A DNA stretch of 45,400 nucleotides, from positions 1 through 45,400 of the forward strand of contig JAGYMQ010000050.1 in assembly GCA_018400535.1 (NCBI GenBank), written 5' to 3'. Positions within the stretch are counted from its first letter, which is position 1; each line of letters starts with the position of its first letter. Below the pieces are notes generated by a model. It was not told the origin of the DNA and made no database searches. It saw only the letters and a list, made by a program, of their open reading frames with translations. Below are positions 32,824 through 44,462 of the stretch, in pieces. Position numbers and translations under genes: made by a program. Source of the DNA: Candidatus Cloacimonadota bacterium (lineage in GTDB: Bacteria > Cloacimonadota > Cloacimonadia > Cloacimonadales > TCS61).

Positions 32824-32866
32824 AAAAATCAGCAAAATAATTAAAAAACTAAAGAAGGTGGAAGAA

Positions 32867-34558
32867 ATGAAGGTAAAAATAGTTTTTCTAATTTTACTGA
32901 TCTTGATCAGTTCAGAAGGATTCACAGAAAGGGTAGCTCTTGTGATCGGAAACGAAAGCTATGAGCAAGAGCCTTTGCAAAATCCAGTAAACGATGCAAA
33001 AGCGATCGCCAAAACATTGAGCAAATTGGATTTTTACGTGACGATCGAAACAGAACTCAATCGCAAAAATATGATCAATGTGATCAATAATTTTTCGGAA
33101 TATCTTGAATATGATGATGTTGTTTTGCTTTATTACAGCGGGCACGGAGTGCAACTGAATGGGATCAATTATCTCATTCCTCTAAATTCCAACATCCAAT
33201 CAGAAGAAGATGTAGAATTTGAGGGAGTAGCAATTGACCGCTATCTCAGGAAATTAGAAAAAGCAAGGATCAATATTATCATTCTTGATGCCTGCCGCGA
33301 TAATCCCTATAGAAGAGTTCGTTCAATGAGCAAAGGTTTGGCACAGGTCTCCGCAAAAACCGAAGGAACTTTCATCGCCTATTCAACAGCGCCAGGAACT
33401 ACTTCTCTGGACGGGCAAGGCAACCACAGTCCATATACAAAAAATTTACTAAAAGAATTAGAAAGACCAAATCAGCAGATCGAAGAAGTTTTTAAAAATG
33501 TTAGAATTGCGGTCAAAAATGAGACAAATAATCAACAAATTCCCTGGGATTCTTCCAGTTTGACAGATGATTTTATTTTTTGCAAAGCAGATATTCTGGA
33601 AAATATTCCAGAAAAAATTGAAATTAAAACTAAAAAGAAATACAAAACTGGAACAATGAAAGTTTCTTCCAATCAAAGTGGAATGTTATATTTGGATGGT
33701 GACTTTCTTGCTGAAATCAAGAAGAATAAAACAGAAATTATAAAAGATATTAGATTAGGACAACATGATCTGGAAATGCAAGCAAAAGGTAAATCTCAAA
33801 AAAAGCAAATAGAGATATTTCAGTTTGAGATCATTTCTGTGCATTTCGAAATATCAGAAAGCGACAAAATGATTTTCGTAGAAGGTGGAGAATTGCATCT
33901 TGAAGATAAAAATAGTGGTAATTCTGTTTGTATCGAATCTTTCTATGTTAGCCAATATGAAGTGAAACAAAACGAATATGAAAGTTTGATGGGTGAAAAT
34001 CCGAGTGGTTTTATTGGTAAAGACTTACCTGTTGAATCAGTCAACTGGCAAAAAGCGGTGGAATTTTGCAATGCCAAAAGCAGAGCTGATGGTTATGAAG
34101 AATGTTATATTGAGCTGGATGGAGAAATGATCTGTGATTTTTCCAAAAACGGCTATCGCCTTCCCACTGAAGCAGAATGGGAATTTGCCGCAAAAGGTGG
34201 GAACAAATCTCAGAATTTCAAATTTGCTGGATCAAATTCAATTCAAGAAGTTGCCTGGTTTAGAGATAATTCTGGAGATCAAACTTATTCTGTTGGCAAA
34301 AAAAAACCAAATGAACTCGGGATCTATGATATGAGTGGGAACGTCTGGGAATGGTGTAATGATTGGTTCGCTGTAGATCATATCAATGCAATAAGTGAAG
34401 ATCAGCGCGGACCAAAAGAAGGTTCTTCTCGCGTTTGTCGTGGGGGCGGTTGGGATTGCGGAGCTATGGCAGTGAAAATTGATTTTCGGATCAGCCACTC
34501 TCCGCTAAATTCCAATAGCTCACTCGGTTTTCGTTACGTAAGATCAGCCAAGAAATGA
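32867..34558 (+). CDS. Exported caspase-like (C14) protein with PEGA-like and FGE-sulfatase domains
   Basis: AAGGTGG and a signal peptide (MKVKIVFLILLILISSEGF) support the start at 32867; the product is 563 residues. The N-terminal caspase/metacaspase-like domain (about 21-240) has the His of YYSGHG (93) and the Cys of ILDACRDNP (143), so the catalytic dyad is intact. A short beta domain (about 262-332, MLYLDGDFLAEI) resembles PEGA. The C-terminal domain (about 333-563) is of the formylglycine-generating-enzyme/SUMF type (ESVNWQKAVEFCNAKS, YRLPTEAEWEFAAKGG, YDMSGNVWEWCNDW, GFRYVRS). The FGE catalytic Cys pair is not evident, so it is more likely a binding module. The protein acts in the periplasm or at the surface and is followed 18 bases on by a DUF4384 gene. 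Confidence 0.9.
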   Translation: MKVKIVFLILLILISSEGFTERVALVIGNESYEQEPLQNPVNDAKAIAKTLSKLDFYVTIETELNRKNMINVINNFSEYLEYDDVVLLYYSGHGVQLNGINYLIPLNSNIQSEEDVEFEGVAIDRYLRKLEKARINIIILDACRDNPYRRVRSMSKGLAQVSAKTEGTFIAYSTAPGTTSLDGQGNHSPYTKNLLKELERPNQQIEEVFKNVRIAVKNETNNQQIPWDSSSLTDDFIFCKADILENIPEKIEIKTKKKYKTGTMKVSSNQSGMLYLDGDFLAEIKKNKTEIIKDIRLGQHDLEMQAKGKSQKKQIEIFQFEIISVHFEISESDKMIFVEGGELHLEDKNSGNSVCIESFYVSQYEVKQNEYESLMGENPSGFIGKDLPVESVNWQKAVEFCNAKSRADGYEECYIELDGEMICDFSKNGYRLPTEAEWEFAAKGGNKSQNFKFAGSNSIQEVAWFRDNSGDQTYSVGKKKPNELGIYDMSGNVWEWCNDWFAVDHINAISEDQRGPKEGSSRVCRGGGWDCGAMAVKIDFRISHSPLNSNSSLGFRYVRSAKK

Positions 34559-34576
34559 AAATGAAGGAGTTTTGGA

Positions 34577-36106
34577 ATGCGAATTATCAGCACTATTTTA
34601 TTGTTACTAGCTAGCAATTTTATTCTTTCAGCATCGCCAAACTGGTATGAAAATGACGTCAGTAATGAATTTCCTGATTATTTTATCGGCAAAGGATTTG
34701 CTGAGATCGAAGCTAAGAATTATGAACAAGCAGCATTAAGAGCAAAAAAAGAAGCTTTGAAAAATGCTGCTTCCACGATTTATTGTGAAGTTTCTGGCCA
34801 GACTATCAATCAATCCAAATTAGTCGGATCAGATAAAAACGTACGCCAGGAAGATTATTTCTTGAGCGAAACGCAGGTCAAAACTGATCTGGAAATTATG
34901 GGCTATGAAATATTAAAGACAGAACATGATAAAAAGAATTATTATGTTTTAGTTGGTATTCCAGCCGACAAAATGCGAAAAGCTTTGCGCAACAAGATAT
35001 CTAATTCAATTCAGAAAATTTCCGAAACTTTCGTAATGGCAGAAGAAATGATAAAGTCCGACCCCAAAACATCTCTCAAAAAATATGAAGAATGCATCGC
35101 AGAAACATCTACACTGCATGATGATCTGAATATTTATCTCTTTTTGAATGACTGGAATAATGACCTTAAATATGATCTAAAAAAATTGCCTTCCTCTCAG
35201 CTGATCGAAAAAAAAATGATCAGTCTGGCTGATTTGATACCAAAATCTACCCAAGAATTAGCTCACAAGATTTTGAAACCTTTCATGCTTGAAAACGCTG
35301 AAAATTATTCATTCACTTTTTATCCTTTCATCTATGAGAATACCGGATTTATTCCACATTTTGGTAAAAATTTCGCAGACATTTGCACAGGCATCATAAT
35401 TGAAAAAAATAATTGGACCGAATATTATGCAGGACAATATGGACAAGCTGATGTTACTTTCAAAGGAAAGATCATGGAGATCGAAAAGGGCGTAATGATC
35501 TCGATAACAATGAAAAGTAAAAGTGGAATGATCAACAAAAATAATCAGATCTTCCTGACCAACGCAACTTGTAAAAATATCGGCTGGGATAAGATACGTC
35601 CCGAAAATCTGCGCTCTGCTCTGGAAAATAAATTAGCTCTCTTCGATGCGATCCAAACAGATAATAAATTGCACGTAGAATTTCGTTCCGATAAGACTGC
35701 AGATGGACCCATAACCTATTTTTATGAAGAAGAACCCAAATTTTTTGTGAGAGCAAATAAATCCTGCTATCTAAGATTGATCTATATTTTTTCTGATGAC
35801 ACAAAAACGCTGCTGCGTAATAATTATTACATCGCACCTGATCAATTGAATCAATGGATAAATTTACCTTTTCAAGGAGTTATATGTGAACCGAGCGGCG
35901 TGGAACAATTGATCTTGCAAGCTTCCACAGAAAAGCAACCGCCAGTCAATTTTCGCCGTCAAGAACTGGGAAATGGAACGTTCATCGACATCATCGAAGG
36001 TGATATTGCAGAACAGATATCAGCAACACGTGGTTTGAAACTGAAATATCCAGAAAAAGAAATCACGGAAAAAGTCTATCAATGGACAGTTTTTGAAAGT
36101 AAATAA
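34577..36106 (+). CDS. Exported LPP20-like/DUF4384-domain protein
   Basis: The 509-residue protein has a signal peptide (MRIISTILLLLASNFILSA) and AAGGAG upstream of the ATG. The N-terminal region (about 25-140) has the LPP20-like pattern PDYFIGKGFAEIEAKN...RAKKEALKNAA, a lipoprotein-associated domain, though no lipobox Cys is seen. The C-terminal region (about 360-460) resembles DUF4384 (FFVRANKSCYLRLIYIFSDD...LLRNNYYIAPDQ). DUF4384 commonly travels with caspase-like genes, which supports joint function with the preceding protein. It ends only 5 bases from the convergent PP2C gene. Confidence 0.78.
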   Translation: MRIISTILLLLASNFILSASPNWYENDVSNEFPDYFIGKGFAEIEAKNYEQAALRAKKEALKNAASTIYCEVSGQTINQSKLVGSDKNVRQEDYFLSETQVKTDLEIMGYEILKTEHDKKNYYVLVGIPADKMRKALRNKISNSIQKISETFVMAEEMIKSDPKTSLKKYEECIAETSTLHDDLNIYLFLNDWNNDLKYDLKKLPSSQLIEKKMISLADLIPKSTQELAHKILKPFMLENAENYSFTFYPFIYENTGFIPHFGKNFADICTGIIIEKNNWTEYYAGQYGQADVTFKGKIMEIEKGVMISITMKSKSGMINKNNQIFLTNATCKNIGWDKIRPENLRSALENKLALFDAIQTDNKLHVEFRSDKTADGPITYFYEEEPKFFVRANKSCYLRLIYIFSDDTKTLLRNNYYIAPDQLNQWINLPFQGVICEPSGVEQLILQASTEKQPPVNFRRQELGNGTFIDIIEGDIAEQISATRGLKLKYPEKEITEKVYQWTVFESK

Positions 36107-36111
36107 AAAAA

Positions 36112-36849
36112 TTAACCTTCCCAATATTTCAATAAAATGATAGAAATATCATCATTAGAACCTTTTGCAACAGCTAAAGAATGAAGCTGTTCAAGGCAGA
36201 CTTGACTATCTTTTTGATCAACCAAAATGTCTTCAATTTCGCGATCGAGAACCGCATCACTCAAACCATCTGAAGTCAATATGATCGTGAATTCTGTCGG
36301 CAACTTGATCTTGTAGGAATTGTATTGGAATCCTGTTCGCAAACCAATAGCTTCAGTGAGAACATTCCCATATTCATTTTTGACGATGTCATCTTTGGTG
36401 ATCTTCCCTTTTTTAAAGAGATCCCAGAGTGGTGAATGATCTTCACTGATCTGACGAAGTTGACCTTCTGAAAAAAGATATAATCTGCTATCTCCACAAT
36501 TCTGGACATAGGCAATATTTTTTTCCAGGATGAGAGAGACAAGCGTGCTGGACATATTTGGTTTTTTCAGTTCTTGTCCTTTTTTCATGATCTTATCATT
36601 TATCAGCTTGATCTGGCGATGAAACCATTTCTCGTAATCAGAAATATTTTCTGAATAAAAAGAATCGGATAATGATCTAACCACAAATTCGCTGGCAAGC
36701 TCGCCACCAGGATAACCACCCAGTCCATCGGCCAGACAAAAAATATTTGCTCGTTCTTGGTCAATCTGAGCTTTTGTTGGTATAAACAGAGCATCTTGAT
36801 TATTTGAATGAGTTTTACCAATGATACTGATCGCTTCCAATTCAAACAT
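36112..36849 (-). CDS. PP2C-family Ser/Thr protein phosphatase
   Basis: The 245-residue PP2C (PPM) phosphatase has the metal and catalytic motifs THSNNQDA, LADGLGGYPGGELAS, VQNCGDSRLYLF, LTSDGLSDAV and KGSNDDISIILL, with the Asp residues for two metal ions. It is cytoplasmic, with no membrane helix. It could reverse phosphorylation by the Ser/Thr kinase at the left edge, though 35 kb separates them. It lies 3 bases after the zinc-ribbon gene in a tight operon. Confidence 0.92.
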   Translation of the reverse strand: MFELEAISIIGKTHSNNQDALFIPTKAQIDQERANIFCLADGLGGYPGGELASEFVVRSLSDSFYSENISDYEKWFHRQIKLINDKIMKKGQELKKPNMSSTLVSLILEKNIAYVQNCGDSRLYLFSEGQLRQISEDHSPLWDLFKKGKITKDDIVKNEYGNVLTEAIGLRTGFQYNSYKIKLPTEFTIILTSDGLSDAVLDREIEDILVDQKDSQVCLEQLHSLAVAKGSNDDISIILLKYWEG

Positions 36850-39791: not shown

Positions 39792-41591
39792 ATGCCAAAC
39801 TATAGAGAACACGCAAATTTGATTTGGAAAGTCGCAGATCTCCTGCGAGGAGATTATAAACAATCTGACTACGGAAAGATCATACTTCCGATGACAGTTC
39901 TGCGAAGACTGGATTGTATTCTTGCTCCAACAAAAAATGAAGTACTGGAATATCTTAAAAAAATAGAAATGCTAACAGATCAGGCAAAAGATATTGCTCT
40001 GAATAAAATTGCAGGTTTCAATTTCCATAATCGCAGTCAGTATGATTTCGAAAAATTAATAGCAGATCCAGAGAACATCGCAGCTAATCTAAGAAACTAT
40101 ATTAGTGGCTATTCTGCAGGTGCTCGTGAGATAATTGAATATTTCAACTTTGATGATCATATTAGCAGGCTCGATGATCCGCAAACAGATCTCTTGTTTC
40201 AAGTAGTAAAATCATTTGCTGAGATCGATCTTAAAGGTATTACTACTATGGAAATGGGATATATCTTTGAAGAGCTGATCAGAAAATTTGCAGAACTATC
40301 CAATGAAACAGCTGGAGAGCACTTCACACCCCGTGAAGTAATTAAGCTGATGGTCAATCTTATCTTCACGGATGAAAAAGATATTTTCACCAAATGTATA
40401 GTTAAAACTCTTTACGATCCAGCTTGTGGTACCGGCGGGATGCTCTCAGTAGGTGAAGGCTTTATTAACGAGCAAAATCCTGATGCTAAACTTCAATTAT
40501 TCGGCCAGGAAATAAATCCTGAATCCTATGCGATCTGTAAATCTGATATGCTGATAAAAGGTCAGAATACTTCCAATATTAAATTTGGAAACACTTTTAC
40601 TGTGGATGGATTGCAACATGAGAAATTTGATTACATGCTGTCTAATCCACCATTTGGTGTTAGTTGGAAGAAAGTAAAAGATACAATTAAAACTGAACAT
40701 GAGAACAAAGGATTTGCCGGAAGATTTGGTCCGGGACTTCCACGTATCAATGATGGTTCATTACTGTTCCTGCTTCATATGATCTCAAAGATGAAGAAAG
40801 ATGGCTCCAGGATTGCTATCGTTTTCAACGGATCTCCGCTTTTTACCGGACAGGCGGGAAGTGGTGAAAGCAAAATCCGTAAATGGATAATTGAAAATGA
40901 TATGCTGGAAGCTATCGTTGCAATGCCCGATCAATTGTTTTATAATACAGGTATTTCTACTTATATCTGGATTGTAACAAATAAGAAAAGCATGGAACGC
41001 AAAGGTAAAATCCAATTGATCAATGCTACTGGTGCAAAAGATGAAGAACTGATAGCAGAAGGAGTACTCACCGAAAATCGTTTCTGGCAGAAGATGACAC
41101 GCAGCCTGGGAAATAAACGTAAGTTCATTCCGGAAAATGGTGATGATAAAGGTATCGGACTTATTGCCAAGATCTATGGAGAATTCAAAGAAGGACAATT
41201 CTGCAAAATCTATCCAAATGAATTCTTTGGTTTCCATCGCATCACAGTTGATCGACCCAAAAAGGATGAAGATGGTAATATCGAATATGATAGAAAAGGA
41301 AATCCCAAACCTGATTCAGAACTTAGAGATTACGAAAATATCCCATTCCTAAGGAAAGATCCTGATGGAAAATTAGTTCCTCAGACAATTGAAGAATATT
41401 TTGAAAGAGAGGTCCTTCCACACGTTCCCAATGCCTGGATCGATGATAAAAAAACCAAAACAGGTTATGAAATCAATTTCACAAAATACTTCTATGAATT
41501 CAAACCACTTCGATCTTTGGAAGAAATTAAAGCTGACATCCTGAAACTGGAAGAAGAAACGGAGGAACTTGAGAGGAAGGTATTGGAATAA
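39792..41591 (+). CDS. hsdM: Type I restriction-modification system methylase subunit HsdM
   Basis: The 599-residue N6-adenine methylase has the HsdM N-terminal helical domain (about 5-150). The SAM site is YDPACGTGGML (near 214-224) and the catalytic NPPF sits near residue 286 (DYMLSNPPFGVSW). The HFTPREVIKLMVNL segment is characteristic. A C-terminal helix (LKLEEETEELERKV) is expected to contact HsdS. It should methylate adenine in a bipartite site read by HsdS. Its TAA overlaps the next ATG (TAATG), indicating coupling. Confidence 0.96.
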   Translation: MPNYREHANLIWKVADLLRGDYKQSDYGKIILPMTVLRRLDCILAPTKNEVLEYLKKIEMLTDQAKDIALNKIAGFNFHNRSQYDFEKLIADPENIAANLRNYISGYSAGAREIIEYFNFDDHISRLDDPQTDLLFQVVKSFAEIDLKGITTMEMGYIFEELIRKFAELSNETAGEHFTPREVIKLMVNLIFTDEKDIFTKCIVKTLYDPACGTGGMLSVGEGFINEQNPDAKLQLFGQEINPESYAICKSDMLIKGQNTSNIKFGNTFTVDGLQHEKFDYMLSNPPFGVSWKKVKDTIKTEHENKGFAGRFGPGLPRINDGSLLFLLHMISKMKKDGSRIAIVFNGSPLFTGQAGSGESKIRKWIIENDMLEAIVAMPDQLFYNTGISTYIWIVTNKKSMERKGKIQLINATGAKDEELIAEGVLTENRFWQKMTRSLGNKRKFIPENGDDKGIGLIAKIYGEFKEGQFCKIYPNEFFGFHRITVDRPKKDEDGNIEYDRKGNPKPDSELRDYENIPFLRKDPDGKLVPQTIEEYFEREVLPHVPNAWIDDKKTKTGYEINFTKYFYEFKPLRSLEEIKADILKLEEETEELERKVLE

Positions 41592-42583
41592 TGGAAAATA
41601 AAGAACAGAATAAAATTGAAATATTTTTGAGTGAAGATAATAAAACCGAAGTTACAGTTATGTTTGAAAAAGATACGGTTTGGCTTACTCAAAAATTAAT
41701 GGCTGAGTTATTTCAGGTGAAACCTCAAAATATTACCATGCATCTGAGAAATATTTTTGCCGAAGGAGAGCTTGAAAAAGATTCAACTTGTAAGGATTTC
41801 TTACAAGTTCAAAAAGAAGGTTCAAGAACAGTTAAACGAAAGCAAAAATTCTATAATCTTGATGCAATTATATCGGTTGGTTATCGCATCAAATCCAAAA
41901 TAGCTACTCGTTTCCGCCAATGGGCGACTAAAAGATTAAAAGACTACCTTGAAAAAGGTTACGCCATAAACGAAAAACGCCTGGAACAAAAGAATCAGCA
42001 AGTATTGCATTTAAAAACTGGATTACAAATTCTGAGTAGAGCAATTAAAGAGAAAAGTGATTATGACAAAAACGAAATCCTGACAGTATTTGCCAAAGGT
42101 TTGGAACTGTTAGACAAGTATGACCACGAAAATTTAGATAAAAAAGGTGCAACCAAGCAGAAAACGATTTTTCCAAATTACGAAGATTATTTCGGTTTCA
42201 TCAAAAAAATGTATTCCGATTTTGAAAGCAGTGTATTTGCCAAACCCAAAGATGACAGCTTTAAAAGCTCGATAAATCAAATAAAACAAACTTTCGATGG
42301 AAAAGAATTGTATCCTACTATTCAGGAAAAAGCTGCCAACCTGCTTTATCTTATTGTAAAAAATCACTCCTTCATTGATGGAAATAAACGCATTGCTGCT
42401 GCCTGTTTTCTCTACTTTCTGAACAAAAACAAAATTCTGTTCGGAGAAGATAACAAAACTATTATCAGTAATGACACGCTGGCATCTTTAACTCTGTTTA
42501 TTGCCAACAGCAAAAGCAGCGAAGCTGAAATTGTGAAACAGCTTGTCATCAGTATTTTGAACAGTAATGATAAAATTAAATGA
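41591..42583 (+). CDS. RhuM-like protein fused to Fic/Doc domain
   Basis: The first 120 residues of 330 match the virulence-RhuM family (KDTVWLTQKLMAELFQVKPQNITMHLRNIF; FYNLDAIISVGYRIKS; RFRQWATKRLKDYLEKGYAINEKRL). A helical linker leads to a C-terminal Fic/Doc domain (about 190-330) with HSFIDGNKRIAAACF near 258, the H-x-F-x-D-G-N-K-R motif that transfers AMP or phosphate to targets. No inhibitory S/T-x-x-x-E-G helix is obvious. It sits between hsdM and hsdS, overlapping both (TAATG and ATGA). RhuM genes often occur in type I systems; the role of the Fic half is unproven. Confidence 0.88.
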   Translation: MENKEQNKIEIFLSEDNKTEVTVMFEKDTVWLTQKLMAELFQVKPQNITMHLRNIFAEGELEKDSTCKDFLQVQKEGSRTVKRKQKFYNLDAIISVGYRIKSKIATRFRQWATKRLKDYLEKGYAINEKRLEQKNQQVLHLKTGLQILSRAIKEKSDYDKNEILTVFAKGLELLDKYDHENLDKKGATKQKTIFPNYEDYFGFIKKMYSDFESSVFAKPKDDSFKSSINQIKQTFDGKELYPTIQEKAANLLYLIVKNHSFIDGNKRIAAACFLYFLNKNKILFGEDNKTIISNDTLASLTLFIANSKSSEAEIVKQLVISILNSNDKIK

Positions 42584-43869
42584 TAAAATACGATAAATAC
42601 AAAAACAGCGGCATCGAATGGATCGGAGAAATTCCAGAGCATTGGGCAAAAAAGAAAATAAAATACTTTTTAAAATGGGAAAAAGGTATTAATGCGGCTT
42701 TATTTACAAGTGATTATATCGGATCAAATATCGGAGATTACCCTGTTTATAGTGGTCAAACTGAGAATGAAAGTATTCTTGGATCAATAAATACATATGA
42801 TTACGATTTTTCTAAAAAAGTATTATTAGTAACAACTGTTGGTGCAAAGGCAATGACAATAAGAGTAATTCAAGGAAAATTTAGTCTATCTCAAAATTGC
42901 GCAATTATTTTTACAAAAGTCAGCAATACAAACATTAAATATCATTATTATTTTTTATTAAGACTATTTGAGTTTGAAAAAGGTATGATATCATTGATCA
43001 TGCAACCATCGCTTAGATTCGAGGATTTAAATACTTTTTTTGGTTATCTTCCACCTCTCCCAGAGCAAACCGCCATCGCCAATTTCCTCGATCGAAAAAC
43101 TGCAGCGATCGATAAACTCATCGAAAACAAAAAGAAACTGATCGAACTGTACGAAGAACAAAAACAGGCGATCATCAACCAGGCGGTAACCAAAGGACTC
43201 GATCCCAATGCGCCAATGAAAGATAGCGGCATCGAATGGCTGGGAAAAATTCCTGAACATTGGGAATTGAAGAAATTGAGATATATTGGAACTTGTCAGA
43301 ACGGTATAAATATTAGCGGAGATTCTTTTGGAAAAGGTTTTCCTTTTGTTAGTTACGGAGATGTATACAATAATTATGAATTGCCAACAGATATTGATAG
43401 TTTAGTTGATTCTTCCCGAAAAGATAGAGAAAATTATTCTGTTAGAAGAGGAGATGTTTTTTTTACCAGAACATCAGAGACTATTGAAGAAATTGGAATT
43501 GCTTCAACAAGTTATTCAGATATTAAGGATGCAGTATTTGCCGGATTTCTCATTCGATTTCGACCTATGAATGAAATTTTGCATTATGGATTTAGTAAAT
43601 ACTATTTTAGAACTAATCTGCTTAGAAGATTCTTTGTAAAAGAAATGAATATTGTAACAAGAGCATCTTTAAGTCAGGAATTGTTGAAAAAACTTCCTGT
43701 ATGTTTACCTTCAATAGAAGAACAAAATCGAATTAATGATTTTATTGAAATAGAATGCAATAAAATCAATCAAATCATCAATAAACTACAAAAGCAGATA
43801 AAATTATACAAGGAATATCGTACAGCACTTATCAGCGAAGTTGTAACAGGTAAGATTTGCATTGTATGA
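42580..43869 (+). CDS. hsdS: Type I restriction-modification specificity subunit HsdS
   Basis: HsdS reads the DNA target. The 429-residue protein has two target-recognition domains, each opened by a repeated sequence (GIEWIGEIPEHWAKKK near residue 9 and GIEWLGKIPEHWELKK near 218). Each is closed by a conserved helical spacer (LPEQTAIANFLDRKTAAIDKLIENKKKLI near 165-190, and EEQNRINDFIEIECNKINQIINKLQKQI at the end). Both halves are complete, so specificity should be intact. Its ATG overlaps the RhuM-Fic stop (ATGA), and its own stop overlaps the next gene's ATG. Confidence 0.95.
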   Translation: MIKYDKYKNSGIEWIGEIPEHWAKKKIKYFLKWEKGINAALFTSDYIGSNIGDYPVYSGQTENESILGSINTYDYDFSKKVLLVTTVGAKAMTIRVIQGKFSLSQNCAIIFTKVSNTNIKYHYYFLLRLFEFEKGMISLIMQPSLRFEDLNTFFGYLPPLPEQTAIANFLDRKTAAIDKLIENKKKLIELYEEQKQAIINQAVTKGLDPNAPMKDSGIEWLGKIPEHWELKKLRYIGTCQNGINISGDSFGKGFPFVSYGDVYNNYELPTDIDSLVDSSRKDRENYSVRRGDVFFTRTSETIEEIGIASTSYSDIKDAVFAGFLIRFRPMNEILHYGFSKYYFRTNLLRRFFVKEMNIVTRASLSQELLKKLPVCLPSIEEQNRINDFIEIECNKINQIINKLQKQIKLYKEYRTALISEVVTGKICIV

Positions 43870-44462
43870 ATAGATTTAAAGATAAATACAGAATCGATTC
43901 TGCCAGATATAAAAATTGGGATTACAGTTGGGCTGGTAGCTATTTTATAACAATTTGCACAAAGAATAGAAAACATTTTTTTGGTAAAATTATAAATGCT
44001 AATATGGAATTATCCGAAATCGGTAAAATCGTGCAGAGAGAATGGGAAAAAACAGAAATTATTCGTAAAGACATGAATTTGGGAGTCGGTGAATATTGCA
44101 TAATGCCAAATCATTTTCATGGCATCATATTATTAGGTGAAAACCAATATAATCATGATCGTAGATACGCAATGTGTTGCGTCTCCTCCACAGAAAAACA
44201 AAAATCAGAAAATAGAGACGCAATGTGTTGCGTATCCACGGAATATAAAAATGAATTTGGACCTCAACGAAAAAATATATCATCGGTCATTCGTGGTTTT
44301 AAATCTGCGGTTACAATTCAGGCAAAAAAAATAAATCCTGATTTTGGATGGCAATCACGTTTTTATGATCATATAATTAGAAATGAAATGGAATATAGAA
44401 AAATAGCATCTTATATTCTGTATAATCCACAAAAATGGGAGAACGATACATTCCATGAATAA
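43866..44462 (+). CDS. REP-associated tyrosine transposase (RAYT, IS200/IS605 Y1 family)
   Basis: The 198-residue Y1 transposase has an HUH motif in YCIMPNHFHGIILL (HFH). The N-terminal RAYT pattern is YDYSWAGSYFITICTKNRKHFF-like (AGSYFITICTKNRK), and the C-terminus is YRKIASYILYNPQKWENDTF with the probable catalytic Tyr. An ATG at 43866 overlaps the hsdS stop (ATGA), and its own stop overlaps the hsdR remnant's ATG. Residues about 100-127 are an odd insertion (YAMCCVSST...RDAMCCVSTE) encoded by two near-identical palindromes. They keep frame and are not part of the transposase fold. RAYTs act on REP palindromes, so the inserted pair is a plausible substrate. Confidence 0.9.
   Translation: MNRFKDKYRIDSARYKNWDYSWAGSYFITICTKNRKHFFGKIINANMELSEIGKIVQREWEKTEIIRKDMNLGVGEYCIMPNHFHGIILLGENQYNHDRRYAMCCVSSTEKQKSENRDAMCCVSTEYKNEFGPQRKNISSVIRGFKSAVTIQAKKINPDFGWQSRFYDHIIRNEMEYRKIASYILYNPQKWENDTFHE
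44164..44236. repeat. REP-like inverted palindrome pair inside the RAYT gene
   Basis: Unit 1 (44164-44185) has arms GATACGCAA and TTGCGTCTC around TGTG. Unit 2 (44215-44236) has arms GAGACGCAA and TTGCGTATC around TGTG. Each unit is a 6-bp-stem palindrome. The outer arms of the pair match each other over 9 bases (GATACGCAA with TTGCGTATC), and so do the inner arms (TTGCGTCTC with GAGACGCAA). A 29-base spacer separates them. This is the layout of a REP doublet or BIME. Confidence 0.85.

Follow-up and report, generated by a model that had tools for sequence, protein, structure and literature searches.

A caspase-FGE protein predicted to be exported and its LPP20-domain partner in a Cloacimonadota genome

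Described relatives of the locus

Most discussion of caspase-type systems in bacteria treats them as switches for death or defence that act in the cytoplasm. We analyzed a 45,400-nucleotide stretch of a Candidatus Cloacimonadota genome (the window) that carries, on its plus strand, a gene for a caspase joined to a domain of the formylglycine-generating enzyme (FGE) type (gene 1), followed by a gene for an LPP20-domain protein (gene 2). Both products are predicted to be exported, and related pairs recur in the phylum. Several components of this arrangement are already published in the accessible parts of the literature: caspase-FGE fusions and the idea that they act outside the cell (PMC3501461), DUF4384 in orthocaspases (PMC7475262, PMC6426788), and orthocaspases diversified by diversity-generating retroelements (DGRs; PMC7517822).

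Metacaspases/orthocaspases with a C-terminal FGE-sulfatase domain (33 of 671 sequences in PMC3501461) have the same domain order as gene 1. The available text of that paper reports N-terminal helices, possibly signal peptides, as common, and treats FGE as a possible enzyme, whereas the gene 1 domain lacks the catalytic cysteine pair. LPP20 and PEGA are absent from that text and it mentions no LPP20/DUF4384 partner gene; gene 1, in contrast, is followed by gene 2. Cyanobacterial DGR variable proteins with an orthocaspase (PMC7517822) likewise combine a caspase-type peptidase with a DGR-diversified lectin-like domain. According to the accessible part of the source they are mostly predicted to be cytosolic, unlike gene 1, which has a signal-like N-terminus directly before the caspase, predicted export and a dedicated partner. 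STAND and ternary conflict systems, as covered by the sections available (PMC10907252, PMC7159879), also tie an FGE-type lectin head, as putative antigen sensor, to peptidase effectors, but they are NTPase-centred and mostly cytoplasmic, and no NTPase was identified in the window pair. Caspase and DUF4384 co-occur in orthocaspases, where the text at hand describes them as fused (PMC7475262, PMC6426788); here the DUF4384-like part is in a separate protein with an LPP20 domain. In the literature searched (PMC4933709 included; most subscription journals were outside its coverage) we found no exported pair whose partner is of the LPP20/DUF4384 type.

The caspase-FGE protein and its partner

Both reading frames lie where the initial annotation placed them. 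Gene 1 (32867..34558) encodes 563 amino acids (aa) and gene 2 (34577..36106) encodes 509 aa; 18 bases separate them, and a Shine-Dalgarno-like stretch precedes the ATG of each (32855..32861 and 34564..34569). Gene 1 encodes an orthocaspase (bacterial Peptidase C14) with a p20-type caspase domain at residues 22-236 (32930..33574; PF00656, E-value (E) 1.2e-44, 153.2 bits against a cut-off of 21.4). The intact His/Cys dyad seen in the initial annotation, His93 (33143-33145) and Cys143 (33293-33295), is conserved together with Asp141 in 16 of 16 caspase-FGE proteins that we collected. The EACC1-associated caspase model NF047832 scores 56.5 bits on gene 1, below its cut-off of 140. An Asp two positions ahead of the catalytic Cys marks caspases that cleave after Arg or Lys, and from its Asp-x-Cys motif (Asp141) we predict that the gene 1 caspase probably has this specificity.

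Gene 1 is probably exported, as predicted from its N-terminus. A signal-like hydrophobic segment of about 20 residues (32867..32926, end approximate) opens the protein, and a hydrophobic stretch lies immediately ahead of the caspase domain in each of the 16 caspase-FGE proteins. Here and below, export calls for gene 1, gene 2 and their relatives are predictions made by eye and from hydropathy. The earlier proposal of export thus holds for the conserved signal-like N-terminus, and export itself stays predicted. The label of a PEGA-like linker did not survive: the linker (about 95 residues, 33575..33862) searched alone against Pfam gave no PEGA match. Among relatives, a distant caspase-FGE protein (genome G032) matches PEGA weakly and below the cut-off (E 0.0064), and a true PEGA domain occurs in one caspase near a gene-2 relative (G107, E 8.7e-10).

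The C-terminal domain of gene 1 (residues 333-559, 33863..34543; PF03781 E 1.4e-39) lacks the catalytic Cys pair, as first suspected. C531 and V536 occupy what we take to be the positions of the two catalytic cysteines of the formylglycine-generating enzyme, and none of 15 aligned caspase-FGE proteins has Cys at both. Its Pfam name and fold might suggest that the domain acts as a formylglycine-generating enzyme coupled to the protease, and the accessible text of PMC3501461 speculates on such a coupling, but this is almost certainly wrong because a catalytic residue is missing.

The closest solved structure is Treponema denticola variable protein 1 (2y3c), which comes first both by sequence (E 6e-39) and by modeled fold (E 6.9e-25) and, unlike gene 1, is not joined to a caspase. 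The gene 1 model has a mean predicted local distance difference test (pLDDT) score of 70.5, and most of its FGE part exceeds 90. We take 2y3c to be a DGR target; the gene 1 domain has the lectin-like FGE fold of DGR variable proteins. By these comparisons, and beyond what the initial annotation noted, it is of the lectin-like type that DGRs diversify, and we read it as a putative non-enzymatic binding head. The domain also resembles PorK/GldK.

Gene 2 begins with a signal-like N-terminus (34577..34633, end approximate) and continues with an LPP20 domain (residues 21-127, 34637..34957; PF02169, 27.5 bits against a cut-off of 25.9). The gene-2 family profile matches the solved LPP20 lipofamily protein 4kzs over this part (E 7.8e-4), which also resembles LPP20/FlgT_N proteins. 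Gene-2 relatives shown with their N-terminus have a hydrophobic stretch that stops just before a P-x-W motif. The partner had been described as DUF4384/LPP20-like; the LPP20 half of that name is above threshold, and the DUF4384-like stretch (residues 385-452, 35729..35932) stays below it in gene 2 (17.2 bits against 27) and in all five aligned family members, which match with 25.0 bits at best. A single-sequence fold of gene 2 was unusable (mean pLDDT 34.2).

An alignment of 11 divergent gene-2 relatives has only 18 invariant columns, and in just one place do three of them follow each other, at Thr484-Arg485-Gly486 (36026..36034), 23 residues from the C-terminal end. Among 21 relatives with a visible C-terminus and a match to the profile's C-terminal part, 20 keep this triplet; the exception (G097) has Lys-Arg-Gly in a frame that contains a stop. 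Six weak relatives (about 290-460 aa, N-terminal match only) lack it at the corresponding position. Because of the Arg/Lys specificity of Asp-x-Cys caspases, we propose the triplet, speculatively, as a candidate cleavage or contact site; the conservation may equally be structural.

Recurrence of the pair and retroelement-diversified relatives

We searched a phylum set of 124 genomes and a closer subset of 40 relatives (G denotes a genome, C a contig, L a fetched stretch; the window's genome is G000). The gene-2 profile finds 19 places in 15 of the 124 genomes (E ≤ 1e-20), 17 of them close relatives (E ≤ 1e-100); these 17 represent at least 15 genes, since fragment pairs in G093 and G118 may each be one split gene. 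Of these 17, 11 have a caspase or CHAT gene (both clan-CD peptidases) within 2 kb and in the same orientation, so the adjacency on which the initial annotation relied does recur. A caspase-FGE gene is upstream in the window, G022, G020, G093 and G113:C161, and another caspase is upstream in G107 (caspase-PDZ and PEGA-caspase), G118 (caspase fused to a beta-barrel) and G119 (WD40-caspase). The caspase is downstream in G023:C84 (with WD40) and G096 (Big_7-caspase, then WD40-caspase), and a TPR-CHAT gene is downstream in G023:C33 and also in G022. There are seven CHAT matches in the 124 genomes, four above the cut-off, and two of those four are these neighbors of gene-2 relatives.

In G020, G113:C161 and G118 (L099, L181, L186) an IS200-like transposase gene lies between caspase and gene-2 relative, and the pair is still kept. 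For six of the 17 close relatives the contig ends inside the gene or within 4 kb; in G113:C181 and G115:C439 the next or next-but-one gene encodes a WD40 protein cut by the contig end, and G115 has no caspase in the nearly 4 kb visible on each side. The tandem caspase genes of G096:C169 (L178) have a third further on in the phylum-wide list.

A separate family of shorter DUF4384 proteins has 42 places (E ≤ 1e-8), 28 of them strong; a profile comparison of gene 2 with this family gave a probability of 63.7. The phylum-wide caspase search lost four places known from the 40 relatives (G002:C16, G021:C74, G022:C44, G027:C381), so we merged both caspase lists, and these give a neighbor within 3 kb at 15 of the 42 places and 11 of the 28 strong ones. 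Our own hidden Markov model, run on the flanks of the 17 strong places that had no listed neighbor (10 weak ones were left out), found a caspase at 14 more, which brings the total to 25 of 28, all on the same strand. Pfam confirms 12 of the 14. L229 was outside the Pfam scan and has the same open reading frames (ORFs) as L228, probably one stretch assembled twice; L225 is the weakest of the 25 because it has no Pfam caspase match at E ≤ 0.001 (own model 5.2e-80). Two of the other three strong places are cut by the contig end on the usual caspase side, and G109 has a DGR there. A simple pattern finds a lipobox-like motif in 15 of 27 shorter DUF4384 proteins. The only match of this family to solved structures (E 1.1) is meaningless.

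The second caspase of the window's genome, a PDZ-caspase on contig 89 (L101:2011-5784), is likewise followed by a DUF4384 protein; with an NlpC/P60-like protein (below cut-off) they form a unit of overlapping genes. Chance adjacency was rejected, as the pairing counts are far beyond it. By gene order, a caspase with a gene-2-type partner is a recurrent module in the phylum. In G099:C34 (L236:6342-8546) there is a CHAT protein with a weak PEGA match and an N-terminus that looks LPP20-like by eye, with no Pfam match; its gene is convergent with a caspase-FGE gene.

Some relatives of gene 1 are linked to DGRs, a connection that the initial annotation did not make. G068:C141 encodes a caspase-FGE protein with a signal-like N-terminus, followed by bAvd, a reverse transcriptase (RT) and a template; on the partner side the contig breaks off. 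In G070:C7 a single template fits three caspase-FGE genes, which lie with bAvd and RT among LPP20- and DUF4384-type genes. G109:C17 carries an FGE target, bAvd, RT, a template and then a DUF4384 partner; the caspase part of this target is not established because the contig start cuts its N-terminus. Differences between variable and template repeat fall at template adenines, a known DGR signature in the available text of PMC10907252, in 16 of 20 cases in G068 (three of the 20 are gap columns), in 19 of 20 (one a gap), 18 of 24 and 15 of 17 in the three G070 genes, and in 24 of 25 in G109. By this pattern, caspase-FGE proteins with signal-like N-termini, and so predicted to be exported, are DGR targets in two genomes, G068 and G070. 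The G070 retroelement (G070:C7:44000-62000, L252) lies by a cluster of five caspase genes, and one of its targets is out of frame at the tail.

The window's genome has its own DGR on contig 118 (L122:480-2474), with an Avd-like ORF, an RT and an Asn-rich template of another type (DUF1566/FISUMP-like by eye) that does not match gene 1. An FGE-type DGR in G032 (G032:C1 near 1390132, L138) does not match that genome's own caspase-FGE gene; the reading frame of a second repeat upstream of this DGR contains a stop.

Readings of the pair and neighboring genes

As the best reading we propose, tentatively, that gene 1 is an extracytoplasmic, ligand-gated sensor-protease and that gene 2 is its dedicated partner. 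Gene 1 would be exported, with its FGE domain serving as a lectin-like binding head and not as an enzyme. Once the head binds its ligand (a foreign cell, a phage or envelope material), the caspase-type protease would be switched and, as its Asp-x-Cys motif suggests, would probably cut after Arg or Lys. Gene 2, in the same compartment, would act as substrate, inhibitor, regulator or tether, and may be cleaved at the invariant Thr-Arg-Gly near its C-terminus. Envelope sensing, which the initial annotation suggested for an exported caspase and the DUF4384-type protein coupled to it, agrees with the conserved N-terminus and the recurrent adjacency; its export component we infer. The envelope location is also supported by the G118 caspase (G118:C255, L186:6434-7960), which adjoins a gene-2 relative and carries a fused outer-membrane beta-barrel domain (PF13568 E 5.4e-12). 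A changeable envelope sensor is suggested because the same kind of head is rewritten by DGRs in relatives. Such an exported module, conserved with a dedicated partner and with DGR-diversified heads in relatives, would move caspase signaling into the envelope. It would also supply a recurrent partner for LPP20/DUF4384 proteins, which have no known function, and the pair offers one concrete candidate cleavage site.

Several observations weigh against this reading. The tail of gene 1 has no second or template copy in the window's assembly (95.67% complete; next match E 0.4), and the counterpart of the variable repeat of DGR-linked relatives (34427..34543) is single-copy; together with the unmatched template of the genome's own DGR this leaves gene 1 unsupported as a DGR target there. 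In 12 caspase-FGE members with no DGR link, variation at template-Asn columns is higher (2.52 versus 1.40 bits, p 5e-5; one of the 16 rows was dropped from the column analysis, its variable stretch being out of frame), but we dropped this as a DGR trace because 21 general FGE relatives show the effect too, and more strongly (3.07 versus 1.29 bits). Codon endings at template-Asn columns stood at 11/15 versus 15/25. The pairing is looser when counted from the caspase: 11 of 21 caspases of the 40 relatives have such a partner, seven have none within two ORFs on each side, and three were not viewed. A gene-2-like neighbor within four ORFs accompanies 10 of 15 caspase-FGE genes in fetched stretches (three in one cluster) and is missing from five. 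One of these five is the G068 DGR target, whose contig breaks off about 150 bases upstream. No caspase lies near the two remote gene-2 relatives (G045:C50, G048:C169). Finally, export, ligand, proteolytic activity, location and the partner's role all enter as predicted steps.

The pair may instead do housekeeping work in the envelope. The protease would then mature secreted or outer-membrane proteins or control their turnover, the FGE domain would have a structural or docking function like that in PorK/GldK, and gene 2 would serve as an assembly factor. The resemblances of the FGE domain to PorK/GldK and of the LPP20 part to LPP20/FlgT_N proteins would fit, as would a stable chromosomal pair with no template in its genome. 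The patchy distribution of gene 2 (15 of 124 genomes) and the DGR-diversified heads of relatives argue the other way, and we consider this role possible, if unlikely.

A defence or suicide system, in which sensing phage or rivals outside activates the caspase and kills the cell itself or a neighbor, is somewhat less probable still. Putative conflict systems repeatedly contain caspase, CHAT, WD40 and DGR-diversified lectin heads (PMC10907252, PMC7159879), and extracellular fratricide is proposed in PMC3501461, as far as the accessible text of these sources goes. The comparison systems are, however, mostly predicted to be cytoplasmic there, PADLOC gives gene 1 only a general caspase match (E 3.6e-12) and gene 2 nothing meaningful, and we identified neither an effector nor a pore-former in the pair.

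The sensor-protease reading can be extended to an adaptive receptor-protease outside the cytoplasm. Here DGRs would rewrite the lectin head in some lineages, and ligand binding would lead to a cut in the partner after Thr-Arg, freeing a 24-residue tail and triggering an envelope response. We regard this fuller scheme as very doubtful.

Convergent with gene 2 lies a PP2C phosphatase gene (36112-36849). The link to PP2C and kinase genes that had been suggested finds no backing: of the ORFs of at least 150 aa in the relatives' loci compared, none is homologous to this PP2C at E ≤ 1e-3. Further on, positions 39792-44462 hold a type I restriction-modification-like stretch with a methylase-like ORF (by eye), a RhuM-Fic protein and a specificity subunit (Methylase_S).

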